Shown here: in pieces, positions 14,101-24,708 of the stretch
Layout: every line of letters begins with the position of its first letter
Position numbering within the stretch: the first letter of the stretch is position 1
Source: a virus
Length of the DNA: 36,564 nucleotides
Direction: 5' to 3' (one strand)
Virus record (IMG/VR): IMGVR_UViG_3300010297_000019
Span: 1 to 36,564 of that record
Translations under genes and position numbers: made by a program
The notes under the pieces: model-generated
The model's input: only the letters and a program-made list of their open reading frames with translations
Database searches by the model: none
Told to the model about the DNA's origin: nothing

Positions 14101-14436
14101 TGCTTTCTTATCCTGCTCTAATCCTTCTGCCCTCTTCTTCGCTCTCTTTGCATCTTTCAGTCTCTTCTTCTCATCATCAATATGATCCTCACGAAGATTC
14201 AGGATCTGTTCCTGTGTCCTCATGTAAGTGCCCATGAAACCCTTCATGGATGTAGTCATCTCCTCCATGACCACACCAATCGAGTTGGTGGTAGCACCCA
14301 GACTATTGATTGCCTTGATATTCTTTACAGCACCATCTGTGGGTTGCGTAACTTTCTTACCATCAATAATGACAGTGATACCCTTACCACCTGTGGATGG
14401 GGGAGTTACATATTTGTAAAATCTTATCTTTGCCAT
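11134..14436 (-). CDS. Giant tail protein with amidase and lysozyme-like domains, 1100 aa
   Basis: N-terminal 1-130 is coiled-coil with long Lys/Glu runs, and 130-310 has several hydrophobic helices, including LDWFSKPENIEKIKKML. About 478-640 is an Amidase_2/AmpD-type N-acetylmuramoyl-L-alanine amidase (LHWTAGG, VAHTYLRNGQGIGMAVA, IMTHAEA, RWDLWHL). Likely zinc ligands are H482, H580 and D610. About 745-890 is a lysozyme-like muramidase region (LDLIAREESRGKWDAM, DMTIAQVAAKATGAVGKW) with the catalytic Glu probably at 756 or 757. Low-complexity linkers separate the domains. It is paralogous to the next upstream gene. I infer a hub/tape-measure-associated protein that opens peptidoglycan during DNA injection. 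Confidence 0.75.
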   Translation of the reverse strand: MAKIRFYKYVTPPSTGGKGITVIIDGKKVTQPTDGAVKNIKAINSLGATTNSIGVVMEEMTTSMKGFMGTYMRTQEQILNLREDHIDDEKKRLKDAKRAKKRAEGLEQDKKAEDLQEGKRDKKSTFGEKSKKVAAGAFGFFKGLASLVSGLFRTLILYEILDWFSKPENIEKIKKMLEAIKAIGTWLKDTYGFLINMGLDGIVAFMENPFSFEGVFGIIKFITALGLIFAPAAVAKLGLGLLFKLMGSLGSKGLANAVFGFMGKLGMAVFNVMKGVVSFLVGTGWGWALMGIAGIGALGIALGNKANTPGVEKGKTELDETSENGGMVGAPMSGDMFSDEGLDEKADGGKVKKKAAGGGWITGPMSGYPVSLDGGASTSFIGHGTEWVGRRSAGGDAFVIPFNTPATSGGRNGLTSLRMQQAKAGGYSLPTFAKGGKLSGTTNPRRDGSQEENRLAQHDGRPMSMGGRVLQALAQGGKIFLHWTAGGGNFKQSGKYHSIVQGDGSIYRAHPYDQRSGVAHTYLRNGQGIGMAVAAMAGSGGNYVWPSGKQISSLSGEIADIAKKRGWKESDINIKNIMTHAEAASGKDGQLPGNDNYGPTAWGGDGARWDLWHLTKDGAKGSGGHIIRNQVRKMLGMKQIPVPPDAGSPNPAKAAASKGSTTNNATNTNNQSGSSEGSTTNTFDSTSSYLSAEKMAAFFTGSAGLIGDYAADAKEMATGGTLNLGVSGSFCPWCKSGKRYASGGVYAPVLDLIAREESRGKWDAMAPGTTLPGATDMTIAQVAAKATGAVGKWQNLPRYLVARAKAVGLNPMTDKYNAQNQTKIAVHLIEKGQAGVTPAMMKDNPQEAMIRLAKVWAAVPVPKDMQGHRRAVKKGESYYAGVGSNAAHIGVDEMMKALGGGGYPKFDPNKKYVTGDIVNKDGKLRIFDGMGWGDYEGGGPTAQGTANDTQVSSNTGGVSVDPVTGEETAHGEEKKNPMEALMGKMDILKKYVQDAQEMGSGTPSGGLAAGIDQSDLRPRSGDQLAAKQKAEDAAKAEAGENVSLTSTQLPAAGGNSSPPQQAAAEVDMPASGPYVIPANAYARPRFGLTAEIFAEPVSIA

Positions 14437-17400
14437 TAACCGTTAAGGAGGGGAGATGCAGATGGACCGCCAGCGGATTGTTTCTTACCGCCACCAATGA
14501 CTTGTGTCTGAACGACAGGTTGGACCGCGACCATTAGTTGATTAGTCTTAGGTTCCTTCTCACGACGTGTCTTATCGACAGATAATGTACTCAGTTTGTC
14601 TATCTTAGTATTTAGTGCCTCTGTCTCATTAGTTTTGACTGGTTTGAGATCAGAAAGAGGTGTGGATGGTTGTGGGGCAGGAGGAGCAACAGACGGAGGT
14701 GCTTGTGGCGGAGTGGGATCAAAGATACCTTGACTAGGTGTTCCACCGCCCATTTCATCAGCGTCCTTAGCATAGCTTCCAAGGATACCTAGTTTCTGAG
14801 CAAAGAACTCTGCCATCTTCTGTGCTGACAGATACTCGGTCTTGGCATCTATTGTGGGTTCAGCAGTCTGGTTAGCAGTATCCGTACCACCAGTATTAGA
14901 ACTGCTGGAATCGCTAGCAGTCTGTGTCGTAGATCCTGGTGCAGTATAGTTGCCAGATCCATCAGTGCTACCACCACCAGTCAGATTCTCCCAGTGCCAT
15001 GCCTCATGCCCATCAGGATTGTCTGTCTCATATCCAGGAATCTGCTTGAATCCATATGTTCCAGCATTCATCCTCAACCACTTGTATGCACCATTGGTGA
15101 ACCAGAGGTCAACTGCCTTACCTAGACCATGGTTAGATGTACCAGGGGCAGCAGCAGTGCCAGGTCCAAGTTCTCTATAAAGTTGTGCTTGCTTCTCGTA
15201 TGTACGATAAGATGAGTTGATTCTGAATGCAGAACCCATCTTAAATCCATCTTCTGATGCCTTTGCCATCATCGCCTTGAACTTAGGCGCGACATCTTTG
15301 GCGAGTTTATGTCCACCACCAATCGATGCTAGTTGATCCTCAGGCAATCTACCATTGACAGAACCACCAGAAGCAAACTTACCCCAATCTCTTACAGGAT
15401 CTTTTGCCGACTTCTTGGTGCTCATCACCATGGGATCGACCATCTTCTTCGCCATCTTATTGTGTGCTCTTACAGCACCACCCACTGCCATCTCAGGGAG
15501 AGTCATGGGTTCACCAGTATCACCAGACTCTGCTGCTGATAGCAGTGCATCTTCACCAGGGAATCCACCGTTAGGATCGCGGATCAGTTTTCTCTGTGCA
15601 AAGTCACCACCGATCATCTTAGCGATCGGGTCGTCAGTCTCTGCCAACCAGGGTATCTTATAAAGGAGACCCAACAACTGTTCTGCTGCCCACTCACCAG
15701 CGAAACCACCTGCCATACCAGTGATGAAACCAGGTACACCACCAAACGGAGCACCAATAGCAAAACCAGCAGAGTAACCTAGCAGACCACCTAATGCTTT
15801 AAGTAAAGCGTTAATAGGTGATTCACCAAACATACCATAGTCCATGAGTGCTAGGACAGTGGCAACGATCTTATCAACACCACCGATCTTAGCATTTGCT
15901 TTTGCTGCTTTCAAGAACTCACGCAGGTTCTTGAATCCAGGGTTCTGGAATCCTGCCTTAATAGCACCACCGATGGATTCTTTCACCTTGTCCATCTTGA
16001 TACCACCAAAAGGACCCTTCGGTGGGGCGTTGGCAAGATCCTTGACCTTCTTACCAATAGGATTCTTTTCTAGGATAGGACCAACAAAGTCCTTGACCTT
16101 CGCCATCGCCTTGTCGCGAAGCGCAGCAGGATTCTTCGCCAGTTCTGCAACATCACCAATCATCTTTCCTGCTTTGGCACCGAAGTCCCAAATACCCTGA
16201 CCCATGCTCTTGACACCACCGATCAGTCTCTCGCCACCCTCAGCAAACCACTTGTTTAGATTTTGGAATGCACCAACAGTAAATGAACCAACTGCCTTTG
16301 CACCAGTTACAGTAGCATCGACTGCTCGACCTGCAAGTCTCTGACCTTTACCAAATAGGTCACCCAGAGCGCCCATGACGCCCTTGCTGGTTGCTACCTC
16401 TTCTGCTGCTTCGGATGCTACCTTCTTGCTACTTTGTTCTGCAAACTCAGCGCCAGTCTTCTTCGCTACATCATCAGCATTCTGAGCAACTGCTCTCTTA
16501 GTAGCATCATCTGCACCAGCAGGTAACAGATCCAACGGATTAGGACACAGAGCACCAGCGACCCCACCTAGACCACGACGACCACCACGACCGAATCTTC
16601 TTCTAGCAGCTCTATCACCAAATCTTCTTCTATATCTCTCTCGTGCAGTTAGTCTTCTACCAGAACTATCTCTCGATCCTCCACCACCGCCACCGCCACG
16701 ACTTCTCGGTGTTTGCGACTTTCGGAATGCTTCACCGATCTTACGCATCGCCTTGAAGTCGCCAATCAACTTCCAGGGCATTAGGATACGAGATCCTACA
16801 AAGATACTTGCTAATCCTGCAACGATTTGCAGAACACCAAATACCTTATCAAGACCATTCTCAACGGCACTCTTGTCAGGATCATTACCAAATACTTTCG
16901 TGATCCCATCAAGGACCTGAGTCATCCCCCACTTGGTAAACCATCGAGCAAGATCCCATATACCCTTGAAGAACTTCAAGAGTGTCTTGATCTTCTCTAA
17001 GTTTTCTGGTTTGGATAACCAGTCTAGTACACCCAGAGCAAGGAATGGAGCAACCAACTTGATCAGTCCACCCATGAGCATCTTCATGGGACTGAACAGG
17101 TTCTTCAACCATCCAAACTTAGATTTCTTCTCCTTCTTTGCTTCCTCCTCACCTATCTTCTCTTCTTTCTTTGCACTCAGTCCTTCTTGCTTCTCTTCTG
17201 CAAGTTTATCCTGCTGCAATCCTTTCTTCTTGCCCAGCATGTCTTCCTGGGCTTCAATTATCTCTACCTTATGCTTATGCTCTTTTTCTGTAACTTCCTT
17301 CTCTCTTTCTTGGAAAGCGAGTACAGAATCAGAGTATGTTGTTACTACTTCTTTGAATTCTTTTGTTAGCAGACCAATGTCAGTCAGAACCACACCAAGA

Positions 17401-17498
17401 CGATTGAAGGCAAACGTTTGTGACTTAAACTGTTTGCCTAACTCGTCTGACCCAAACTGGGGTTTAATGGTTACAAATTTTCTGATCGTTGCTGCCAT
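14436..17498 (-). CDS. Giant tail protein with VanY-type peptidase domain, 1020 aa (tape-measure candidate)
   Basis: The start at 17498 is taken because its ATG overlaps the TAA of the upstream ORF (TAATG); earlier in-frame codons are antisense-like. Residues about 1-130 are coiled-coil. About 130-265 are hydrophobic helices with LDWLSKPENLEKIKTLL, matching the downstream paralogue. An Arg/Gly-rich patch lies at about 266-310, followed by Ala/Gly helices to 640. At about 728-838 is a VanY/M15-type D-Ala-D-Ala carboxypeptidase region: SSYRT, SNHGLGKAVDLW (H790, D797) and HEAWHWE (E832, H835). A proline-rich tail follows. Its place directly after a chaperone-like gene pair suggests a tape-measure role. 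This is inference. Confidence 0.7.
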   Translation of the reverse strand: MAATIRKFVTIKPQFGSDELGKQFKSQTFAFNRLGVVLTDIGLLTKEFKEVVTTYSDSVLAFQEREKEVTEKEHKHKVEIIEAQEDMLGKKKGLQQDKLAEEKQEGLSAKKEEKIGEEEAKKEKKSKFGWLKNLFSPMKMLMGGLIKLVAPFLALGVLDWLSKPENLEKIKTLLKFFKGIWDLARWFTKWGMTQVLDGITKVFGNDPDKSAVENGLDKVFGVLQIVAGLASIFVGSRILMPWKLIGDFKAMRKIGEAFRKSQTPRSRGGGGGGGSRDSSGRRLTARERYRRRFGDRAARRRFGRGGRRGLGGVAGALCPNPLDLLPAGADDATKRAVAQNADDVAKKTGAEFAEQSSKKVASEAAEEVATSKGVMGALGDLFGKGQRLAGRAVDATVTGAKAVGSFTVGAFQNLNKWFAEGGERLIGGVKSMGQGIWDFGAKAGKMIGDVAELAKNPAALRDKAMAKVKDFVGPILEKNPIGKKVKDLANAPPKGPFGGIKMDKVKESIGGAIKAGFQNPGFKNLREFLKAAKANAKIGGVDKIVATVLALMDYGMFGESPINALLKALGGLLGYSAGFAIGAPFGGVPGFITGMAGGFAGEWAAEQLLGLLYKIPWLAETDDPIAKMIGGDFAQRKLIRDPNGGFPGEDALLSAAESGDTGEPMTLPEMAVGGAVRAHNKMAKKMVDPMVMSTKKSAKDPVRDWGKFASGGSVNGRLPEDQLASIGGGHKLAKDVAPKFKAMMAKASEDGFKMGSAFRINSSYRTYEKQAQLYRELGPGTAAAPGTSNHGLGKAVDLWFTNGAYKWLRMNAGTYGFKQIPGYETDNPDGHEAWHWENLTGGGSTDGSGNYTAPGSTTQTASDSSSSNTGGTDTANQTAEPTIDAKTEYLSAQKMAEFFAQKLGILGSYAKDADEMGGGTPSQGIFDPTPPQAPPSVAPPAPQPSTPLSDLKPVKTNETEALNTKIDKLSTLSVDKTRREKEPKTNQLMVAVQPVVQTQVIGGGKKQSAGGPSASPLLNG

Positions 17499-17686
17499 TA
17501 TAGGAATGATCCACCTTGTTTTTGCTTGGCACGTTCGCGCTCTTCTTCTTGTAGATATGCTATAAGTAGATTCACGTAAACATCCCTTTCCCAAGGGATC
17601 ATGTCTTCTAACTCAGTTAGTGAGTATTTGTGGTGTTGCATTAATGCAAAGTTAGTCTTGAACAAGTTCATGAGACTATCATGCAT
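17498..17686 (-). CDS. Small tail-assembly ORF, 62 aa, possibly read by -1 frameshift from gp26
   Basis: A 62-aa frame (MHDSLMNLFKTNFALMQHHK..., MIPWERDVYVNLLIAYLQEE). Its ATG is 5 nt after the gp26 TAG, but its reading frame is also open upstream through the slippery site in gp26, in the -1 frame. Similar small ORFs follow gp26 in other cyanomyoviruses and have been labelled baseplate hub assembly factors; I cannot confirm the label here. It may be made as a separate protein by reinitiation, or as the C-terminal extension of a 298-aa gp26 fusion like lambda gpG-T. Its stop overlaps the start of the giant VanY-domain protein. Confidence 0.65.
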   Translation of the reverse strand: MHDSLMNLFKTNFALMQHHKYSLTELEDMIPWERDVYVNLLIAYLQEEERERAKQKQGGSFL

Positions 17687-17691
17687 TAACG

Positions 17692-18393
17692 CTACGCGAA
17701 AAAAGCCGCGAGTCCTTCCAGGATGATGGTGTTATCCACCTTGGTTTTAGGATTCGTTACCACGAACTCATGCCTGAGTTTAGGCATTGTGTCGAAGAAC
17801 TTTTGAATAGATTGGAACTGTTCACTATTCATCTCACCGAGGAAATCCTTTGCTTCTTTCTTAGTGAAAGCCTCATAGGTTTCATCTCCATCGTATACTT
17901 TTTCAATGCAGTCGGCAGCAAGTTCAAAGACATCTTCAATGTCAGGATCTTCCTTCATGTTGGTGTCGATGAATGCATCGAGTGAAGGATACCTCATCTG
18001 TACCTTGACAGTATCAGTGAGTTTGACGATCTTCTTGTGATCCTTAGGAACATTGACTTCAATCTCATCGAGATTCAGTTGAACATCAACCTGAGTCTCT
18101 CCATCATCTTGACATGTTACTTTGAATTCACTAACTTCACCAACTGCTTTGGATCTGATCTTCAAGAAAAGATACTCGATCTCAAACGTGGCAAGTTTCT
18201 CAACATTAGGAACGTTGGTACATGCTTTAAGGATTTGCTTCACTGCGCGAATCATCTCCTTCTCGTTCTGGGACTCCATCGCGAGATAGAGGAGTTTTTC
18301 TTCTTTTACAAGAAACGGTCGGTATGTGACCTTAGTACCACTGACAGGGAGTTTACACTCGTAATCAGGCACTACAAGTTTAGGTAAAGGCAT
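17692..18393 (-). CDS. gp26: Baseplate hub protein, gp26-type (T4 baseplate family), 233 aa
   Basis: Starts MPLPKLVVPDYECKLPVSGT with YRPFLVKEEKLLYLAMES, the hallmark of the T4 baseplate family that includes gp26-type proteins of cyanophages (208-243 aa; here 233). The rest is alternating helices and strands ending FQSIQKFFDTMPKLRHEF. In T4 such factors help assemble the baseplate hub. It lies immediately before the giant tail proteins. The last codons (Ala-Phe-Phe-Ala) contain a candidate frameshift site into the following ORF. A TCTAAATA box lies 23 nt upstream. Confidence 0.75.
   Translation of the reverse strand: MPLPKLVVPDYECKLPVSGTKVTYRPFLVKEEKLLYLAMESQNEKEMIRAVKQILKACTNVPNVEKLATFEIEYLFLKIRSKAVGEVSEFKVTCQDDGETQVDVQLNLDEIEVNVPKDHKKIVKLTDTVKVQMRYPSLDAFIDTNMKEDPDIEDVFELAADCIEKVYDGDETYEAFTKKEAKDFLGEMNSEQFQSIQKFFDTMPKLRHEFVVTNPKTKVDNTIILEGLAAFFA
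17698..17704 (-). promoter_or_regulatory. Candidate -1 ribosomal frameshift site U_UUU_UUC
   Basis: In the gp26 frame the last codons are GCT TTT TTC GCG TAG. This contains the heptamer T TTT TTC, matching X_XXY_YYZ. A GGAAGGA Shine-Dalgarno-like sequence (17713-17719) ends 8 nt upstream. A 5-bp stem (17669-17683) starts 14 nt downstream. After a -1 slip the frame reads Arg-Val-Ala-Leu and enters the ATG at 17686 in frame, with no stop between. Confidence 0.55.
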
Positions 18394-18427: not shown

Positions 18428-19165
18428 TTATCCGATGCTGAATCTCTGTACATCGGGGTTACCAGAACCTTCTACTCTGGTTCTAACTTCACTAAACGTG
18501 AATGTTTCTGCTCTACCACCCTTCGTTTTCAGGGTCTTGGGAGATACTTGGTCGAATCTGTAACGCTCGAAGTAGAACTGAATATCCATTTGCAGAAGTC
18601 CAGTCTGTTCGTTATCAAACGTTTGAGTGCTGATGTTAGTGGGGAATGCACCAAACAGTTTCCACACACCAGTTGCTTGCATCGGATGCATTCCTTTTTT
18701 GCTATTATCTCTATTCTGCTTCAACTTAAAGTTAGCACCATGCTCCCATTTGACGATCTGCAAATCAACAACATAATCATCATAGAATGCTACGCTATTA
18801 TCAGAGTCAGAAGCAGCAGAGTGTAACCATGCTTCAAAGAAGTCTCTATGCATCTGGTCCTTTGTGACCAAGAATGAGATAGTAATCTCCGAGTTAGTCT
18901 GACCTGTGGCGAAGCGACGCATCATACCATAGTTATTGATTTCGCTTGTCGTCAATGCTCTACTTGGTGTAGTAACAGAAGAAGCATAGTAGTTGATAGT
19001 CTCATAGACTCTTTTAATACGACCACCAGACACTGCACCATTACCACCGTTACCGAATATGGGAGGTGCAGGAATCATAATTTGAAACAGGTTAGTGGTT
19101 GCTGGTGCCAGGGCATTAGTAGCAACCAGATCTCTGAATGTATTAAATCTATTGGGACTTCCCAC
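18428..19165 (-). CDS. gp54: Baseplate tail-tube initiator-like protein (gp54-type), 245 aa
   Basis: A 245-aa protein with a tail-tube-like pattern: PNRFNTFRDLVATNALAPAT, then YYASSVTTPSRALTTSEI, and YGMMRRFATGQTNSEITISF. These features match tube or tube-initiator proteins, whose beta-barrel stacks on the baseplate. T4 gp54 is 320 aa, so this is shorter, as in cyanophages. It is flanked by gp26 and a gp4-type gene, and gp48-like (the tube cap) is nearby on the other strand. A different tube-fold protein cannot be excluded. Confidence 0.6.
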   Translation of the reverse strand: MGSPNRFNTFRDLVATNALAPATTNLFQIMIPAPPIFGNGGNGAVSGGRIKRVYETINYYASSVTTPSRALTTSEINNYGMMRRFATGQTNSEITISFLVTKDQMHRDFFEAWLHSAASDSDNSVAFYDDYVVDLQIVKWEHGANFKLKQNRDNSKKGMHPMQATGVWKLFGAFPTNISTQTFDNEQTGLLQMDIQFYFERYRFDQVSPKTLKTKGGRAETFTFSEVRTRVEGSGNPDVQRFSIG

Positions 19166-22853: not shown

Positions 22854-22882
22854 AAATACCCCGAATTTTTTTCGGGGTATTT
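22854..22882 (-). terminator. Rho-independent terminator after exported basic protein gene
   Basis: A 12-bp perfect stem, AAATACCCCGAA with TTCGGGGTATTT, around a 5-nt loop. On the - strand a run of T follows, so it ends transcription from gp32 and the gene at 22908-23288. A run of T is not present on the + side. Confidence 0.9.
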
Positions 22883-24356: not shown

Positions 24357-24708
24357 GAAGTTCTTTTTTCCATCCGATCAACTTGTCTTCCATGACCTGT
24401 AAGATCGCTAGCAGGTTACCCTGCCCTCCTGTGTAGATGGATGACACCGTGTCGATCCTATTCTTCATGGACTTGACCTCGGACTCGTCGTCCCCTTCCT
24501 CTTCAACATAGTTTGCCATCATCTCTAAGCGAGAGTAGAAAACTTTCTGCTTAGCAATGAGTTCTAGTGTCTTGTTGATGTGTTCAATCTTCTGACCAGG
24601 ATCAAAGTTCTCAAAGTCCTGAGACATTTTGAGCAGGTCAGTGTATGTTGATTGCAATTCGTTCAGTTCTTCTTGAACGATTTCTGACTTAAAGAATTCG
24701 TCAGTCAT
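24346..24708 (-). CDS. DUF1825-like protein, 120 aa
   Basis: Starts MTDEFFKSEIVQEELNELQS and continues as an amphipathic helical protein (FDPGQKIEHINKTLELIAKQ, KVFYSRLEMMANY). This opening matches the DUF1825 family of cyanobacteria and cyanophages, which begins with F-F-x-S-E-I-V-Q. The host and phage proteins are small helical proteins of unknown function. It overlaps the upstream gene by 4 nt, and its stop is in a terminator loop. Possible origin from the host. Confidence 0.65.
   Translation of the reverse strand: MTDEFFKSEIVQEELNELQSTYTDLLKMSQDFENFDPGQKIEHINKTLELIAKQKVFYSRLEMMANYVEEEGDDESEVKSMKNRIDTVSSIYTGGQGNLLAILQVMEDKLIGWKKELQGG

Follow-up and report, generated by a model that had tools for sequence, protein, structure and literature searches.

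Organization of the gp26 locus

Is the short reading frame that follows gene 26 in a marine T4-like cyanophage a gene of its own, or is it the second half of gp26, reached by ribosomes that shift into the -1 frame? We addressed this question in a 36.6-kb fragment of a phage genome (36,564 nucleotides; hereafter, the window), in which the genes and signal elements of the gp26 locus lie on the minus strand. Among named phages, Synechococcus phage S-WAM1 (Kyanoviridae; 73.6% DNA identity) is the nearest to the window, which therefore comes from a cyanomyovirus. A tail-tube-like ORF (phrog_45; 18428-19165) lies directly upstream of gp26 and is followed by gp26 itself, its -1 frame extension and a 1020-aa ORF (14436-17498), an order that places the gp26/extension pair between tail-tube and tape-measure candidates. 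gp26 (17692-18393) encodes 233 aa followed by a UAG stop (17692-17694), matches PF12322 (E = 4e-69) and phrog_150, and is the candidate for the short form (TAC-N) of a tail-assembly chaperone (TAC). The extension (17498-17698) comprises 66 codons plus a stop, namely RVAL followed by the 62-codon ORF that gene-finding programs would predict (17498-17686, with its ATG at 17686 and its stop at 17500-17498), and is the TAC-C candidate.

The start codon of the 1020-aa ORF overlaps the -1 frame stop (TAATG). The tape-measure label of this ORF reflects its position, hydrophobic stretches and length. It also contains a VanY-type D-Ala-D-Ala carboxypeptidase domain near residues 730-837; the tail may therefore carry a predicted peptidoglycan-cutting activity.

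A slippery heptamer is conserved in phase at the end of gp26

The 3′ end of gp26 reads CTG GAA GGA CTC GCG GCT TTT TTC GCG TAG. An earlier note on this DNA had placed a slippery T_TTT_TTC here in the X_XXY_YYZ (-1) phase, and the heptamer (17698-17704) proved exact to the base, three codons before the stop. The note had also asked whether homologues keep it. We counted T_TTT_TTN in phase at the gene end in 176 loci from IMG/VR scans with gp26 and from annotated phages; these are all the loci with a readable gp26 end, chosen regardless of the heptamer, and T4 lies outside the set, as the cyanophage query does not find T4 gp26. The heptamer was present in 173 of the 176. Carriers include the phages KVP40, phiM12 and Cr30, phages of Acidovorax, Stenotrophomonas, Aeromonas, Agrobacterium and Rhizobium, and one Desulfovibrio phage. 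The three loci without it belong to Klebsiella Marfavirus (T4 type), one Ackermannviridae phage and one Vibrio phage.

Dereplication of the carriers (<85% identity over 360 nt) left 110 loci, which spell the heptamer TTTTTTC (99), TTTTTTT (9), TTTTTTA (1) or TTTTTTG (1). The codon preceding the heptamer ends in T in all 110, where gp26 codon use predicts 63, and all 110 have TTT as their first Phe codon (70.5 expected), counts that are conditional on carrying the motif, come from related loci and are to be read with the unconditional 173 of 176. By comparison, just one of the 114 other Phe-Phe pairs within gp26 genes is spelled T_TTT_TT. Synonymous sites are thus under selection for the heptamer. 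We rejected rarity alone as evidence, since TTTTTTC is not rare by itself: the window holds four copies, where 5.9 are expected. The other three (2879-2885, 22867-22873 and 24364-24370) occur at chance level. It is phase, place and conservation that make the heptamer at the end of gp26 more than chance.

A Shine-Dalgarno-like element is selected upstream of the heptamer

The GGAAGGA that had been pointed out 8 nt upstream of the heptamer was found at 17719-17713, where it constitutes a Shine-Dalgarno-like 5′ stimulator. Across the 110 loci, anti-Shine-Dalgarno pairing peaks in 9-mers beginning 12-18 nt before the heptamer and exceeds that of synonymous recodings at this place (z = -9.5), compared with values between -1.2 and +2.1 in five upstream control stretches. 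Synonymous sites are therefore under selection for this element as well.

The -1 extension is conserved ahead of any start codon

The -1 frame runs from the heptamer into the 62-codon ORF with no intervening stop, reading FFRVAL-MHDSL..., and the fusion would be 298 aa long, both as previously described. Stops in the -1 frame of homologues would have spoken against a fusion; the frame is open into the same domain in all 110 dereplicated carriers, and the extension measures 57-71 codons in each. The peptide is conserved from the slip point onward, ahead of any ATG, with the consensus FFRIALxHxSLxNYYxxNFxLMQHHKYSLxELENMxPWERxxYVxLL. The 62-aa ORF matches phrog_634 (gp51; E = 2e-27) and has a weak match to positions 239-276 of phrog_150, the latter as expected if some phrog_150 members are fused proteins. 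Searches of the extension alone against Pfam gave chance-level matches only, and profile searches against PDB sequences with gp26 and with the extension returned nothing relevant.

These data bear on the possibility that gp51 is an ordinary small gene, translated independently by ribosomes that re-initiate past the gp26 stop, with the T-run merely encoding Phe-Phe. An ATG does lie soon after the stop in the window and in many relatives (in 44 of 110 loci the first ATG is the fourth codon after Phe-Phe), and databases annotate gp51 separately, as a "baseplate hub assembly catalyst". However, in 32 of the 110 loci the first 14 codons of the -1 frame include no ATG, and in 19 they include no ATG, GTG or TTG; the gp51 domain therefore often cannot be made alone. 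Where ATGs exist, on average no Shine-Dalgarno sequence precedes them (mean -0.65 kcal/mol, compared with -2.7 kcal/mol for gp26 starts). Conservation of the peptide upstream of any ATG, together with synonymous selection both for the heptamer and for a Shine-Dalgarno-like element at frameshift spacing, also argues against re-initiation as the explanation of this locus, which we regard as very unlikely. Because the ATG often lies 2 nt or more past the gp26 stop, some free gp51 may be made by re-initiation.

A stem-loop follows the heptamer and differs in sequence between clades

The earlier note had described a small stem 3′ of the heptamer. A stem is present, but it is not small: it belongs to a 55-nt stem-loop (17692-17638) with a perfect 11-bp outer stem (17692-17682 paired with 17648-17638) and a long inner stem (17678-17653). 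A 5-nt spacer separates the stem-loop from the heptamer, a distance common among -1 stimulators. Its folding energy is -22.3 kcal/mol, compared with -9.0 ± 2.6 kcal/mol for dinucleotide shuffles (z = -5.2), and the window's stem-loop also exceeds synonymous recodings (z = -4.2). All elements of a -1 frameshift site are thus found here, namely a heptamer, a Shine-Dalgarno-like sequence upstream and a structure downstream (at 5-9 nt).

Downstream of the gp26 stop, only the -1 frame is coding, and the RNA there folds better than its synonymous recodings. The mean z for downstream folding is -2.46, compared with -0.51 to -0.76 in controls, and over 37 clusters below 65% identity it is -1.76, compared with -0.45. 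The minimum free energy falls below -12 in 76 of the 110 loci, and about a third of loci have no strong stem. Stem sequences differ from clade to clade, and the outer stem is intact in the window's close relatives only. In one clade the stem covaries, with three pair types at one position (UA 16, AU 5, GC 1) and eight double-changed cells compared with 1.9 in shuffles; there, the 3′-arm change is nonsynonymous in the extension (GAG to GTG or GCG). Applied to one clade, RNAalifold recovered only part of the stem, and Rfam had no match at the site. The window's own clade showed no excess of covariation over shuffles, and the case for the stem there is therefore its energy relative to synonymous recoding. 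We lean slightly toward the view that a three-part signal drives the frameshift across marine T4-like phages and that selection preserves where its stem-loop lies and how strong it is, with the sequence of the stem-loop replaced from clade to clade even where this alters amino acids of the extension; in the T4 lineage, which lost the signal, an in-frame gp51 with both domains would have compensated.

A run of six Ts, seven in a few relatives, could also serve transcriptional slippage, in which RNA polymerase slips on the homopolymer and produces mixed mRNAs that reach the -1 frame. Six Ts are short for this process, which requires neither the fixed codon phase found in 173 of the 176 loci nor the ribosomal stimulators selected on both sides of the run, and we consider it extremely improbable here.

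A putative frameshifted tail-assembly chaperone locus

Taken together, these results make us confident that -1 programmed frameshifting at the end of gp26 produces a TAC-N/TAC-NC pair of tail-assembly chaperones in this T4-like cyanophage. The arrangement is conserved among relatives (173 of 176), while an independent start is not (32 of 110 have no early ATG). The suggestion of a chaperone frameshift before the tape-measure candidate, already made in the earlier note, gains support from the gene order and from T4 gp51, in which the same two domains are fused in frame. Both the PF12322 domain and the gp51 C-terminal domain are present, as in the T4 gp26/gp51 family, and we take the T4-like TACs of Vladimirov 2022 to be, very probably, this same protein family.

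An AlphaFold model built for gp26 (pLDDT 87) strongly retrieves T4-like gp26 proteins; against the PDB, the HK97 chaperone 2ob9 ranks second and fourth, below significance (E = 1.3-1.9, probability up to 0.51). A structure search with the C-terminal domain gave no matches. It is well supported that gp26 and its extension work like a frameshifted TAC locus, and the TAC fold itself is a candidate.

The sequence, its phase and conservation, the selection on synonymous sites, the RNA structure and the domain homology to T4 gp51 are direct observations, from which we infer the slip, its rate and the roles of both proteins as follows. Most ribosomes would stop at the UAG and release gp26, the 233-aa TAC-N. 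A minority would pause at U_UUU_UUC, where GGAAGGA pairs with 16S rRNA and the stem-loop stands 5 nt ahead, move back by one base and translate through the gp51 domain to yield the 298-aa TAC-NC. If the analogy to lambda gpG/gpGT holds, the tape-measure protein encoded by the following gene would be coated with the short form, and tail-tube subunits would be brought in by the long form.

T4 and other phages without the heptamer

In T4 gp51, a baseplate hub assembly protein, a PF12322 domain (residues 1-201) and the C-terminal region of gp51 (147-246 on phrog_634) share a single reading frame. The N-terminal part of this protein thus resembles gp26, its C-terminal domain is homologous to the -1 extension, and it aligned with gp26 plus extension at the junction. 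With both domains in frame, the fused form is what the T4 gene naturally encodes. Unlike in the window, the long form there has a separate gene that needs no frameshift and lies on the strand opposite to gene 26. Genes 26 and 51 are divergent in T4 (L080:3303-4729) and in Marfavirus (L094:1683-3118). In T4, the PF12322 domain occurs in both gp26 and gp51, and the extension in gp51 alone. It is as if frameshifting had been replaced in T4 by duplication and in-frame fusion.

That a separate full-length gene supplies the long chaperone in the window and its relatives too, as the separate two-domain gp51 of T4 and Klebsiella Marfavirus might suggest, leaving the -1 ORF as a relic, is close to inconceivable: gp26 has a single place in each of 662 records and gp51 in each of 525, many of these records are complete genomes, and the -1 ORF shows strong protein conservation and is therefore no relic.

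In the Ackermannviridae phage EP75 (L093:3260-3470) and Vibrio phage K414 (L092:3040-3260), there is no T heptamer and the gp51-like peptide still lies in the -1 frame. Stop and start overlap as TAATG in K414, and EP75 has only A_ATT_TTC; re-initiation or some other slip site may operate in these two phages.

Annotation of the locus and comparison with known systems

Databases mostly miss the frameshift signal. None of the annotated phage records examined has a joined CDS at this locus. In the S-WAM1 record (L084:2615-3202), gp26 starts 38 codons late and the extension/gp51 is unannotated, and in the P-SSM7 record (L097:3301-3396), gp51 consists of the last 31 codons only. Many cyanophage records label gp26 and gp51 as baseplate hub proteins, an annotation that changes if the two form one frameshifted chaperone locus. 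Such a locus would explain the frequent absence or truncation of gp51 in GenBank and would give T4 genes 26 and 51, whose role has long been unclear, a testable function. It would also offer recoding studies in cyanobacteria a natural set of frameshift signals that combine the same heptamer with many different stem-loops.

The closest functional precedent is lambda gpG/gpGT, likewise short and frameshift-extended products of the gene just before the tape-measure gene (PMC5009743). The two systems differ in that no sequence similarity to lambda gpG/gpGT was established for gp26, 233 aa long here, and that the heptamer here is U_UUU_UUC, flanked by a Shine-Dalgarno-like element and a stem-loop. 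PMC10885494 and PMC12846349 credit Vladimirov, Gautam and Davidson (2022; Virology 566:9) with having identified the TACs of T4-like phages; according to them, such phages are known to have slippery poly-T sequences in TAC-N genes, and some encode the short and long TACs in separate genes. In other phage families, the TAC locus of phage Adele (Vandenendeviridae/Andersonviridae) also has a -1 frame that is open in all relatives, lies before the tape-measure gene and carries a conserved poly-T motif, GTTTTT, which is unlike the heptamer here; the section on that locus reports no stimulator analysis (PMC12846349). Full-text searches of freely available papers returned none on the present cyanophage signal. 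TAC frameshifting is already known in many phages and had been proposed for T4-like phages before; what this analysis adds is the three-part signal in cyanomyovirus relatives, with its selected Shine-Dalgarno-like element and its stem-loop that turns over in sequence, together with the mis-annotation of gp51.
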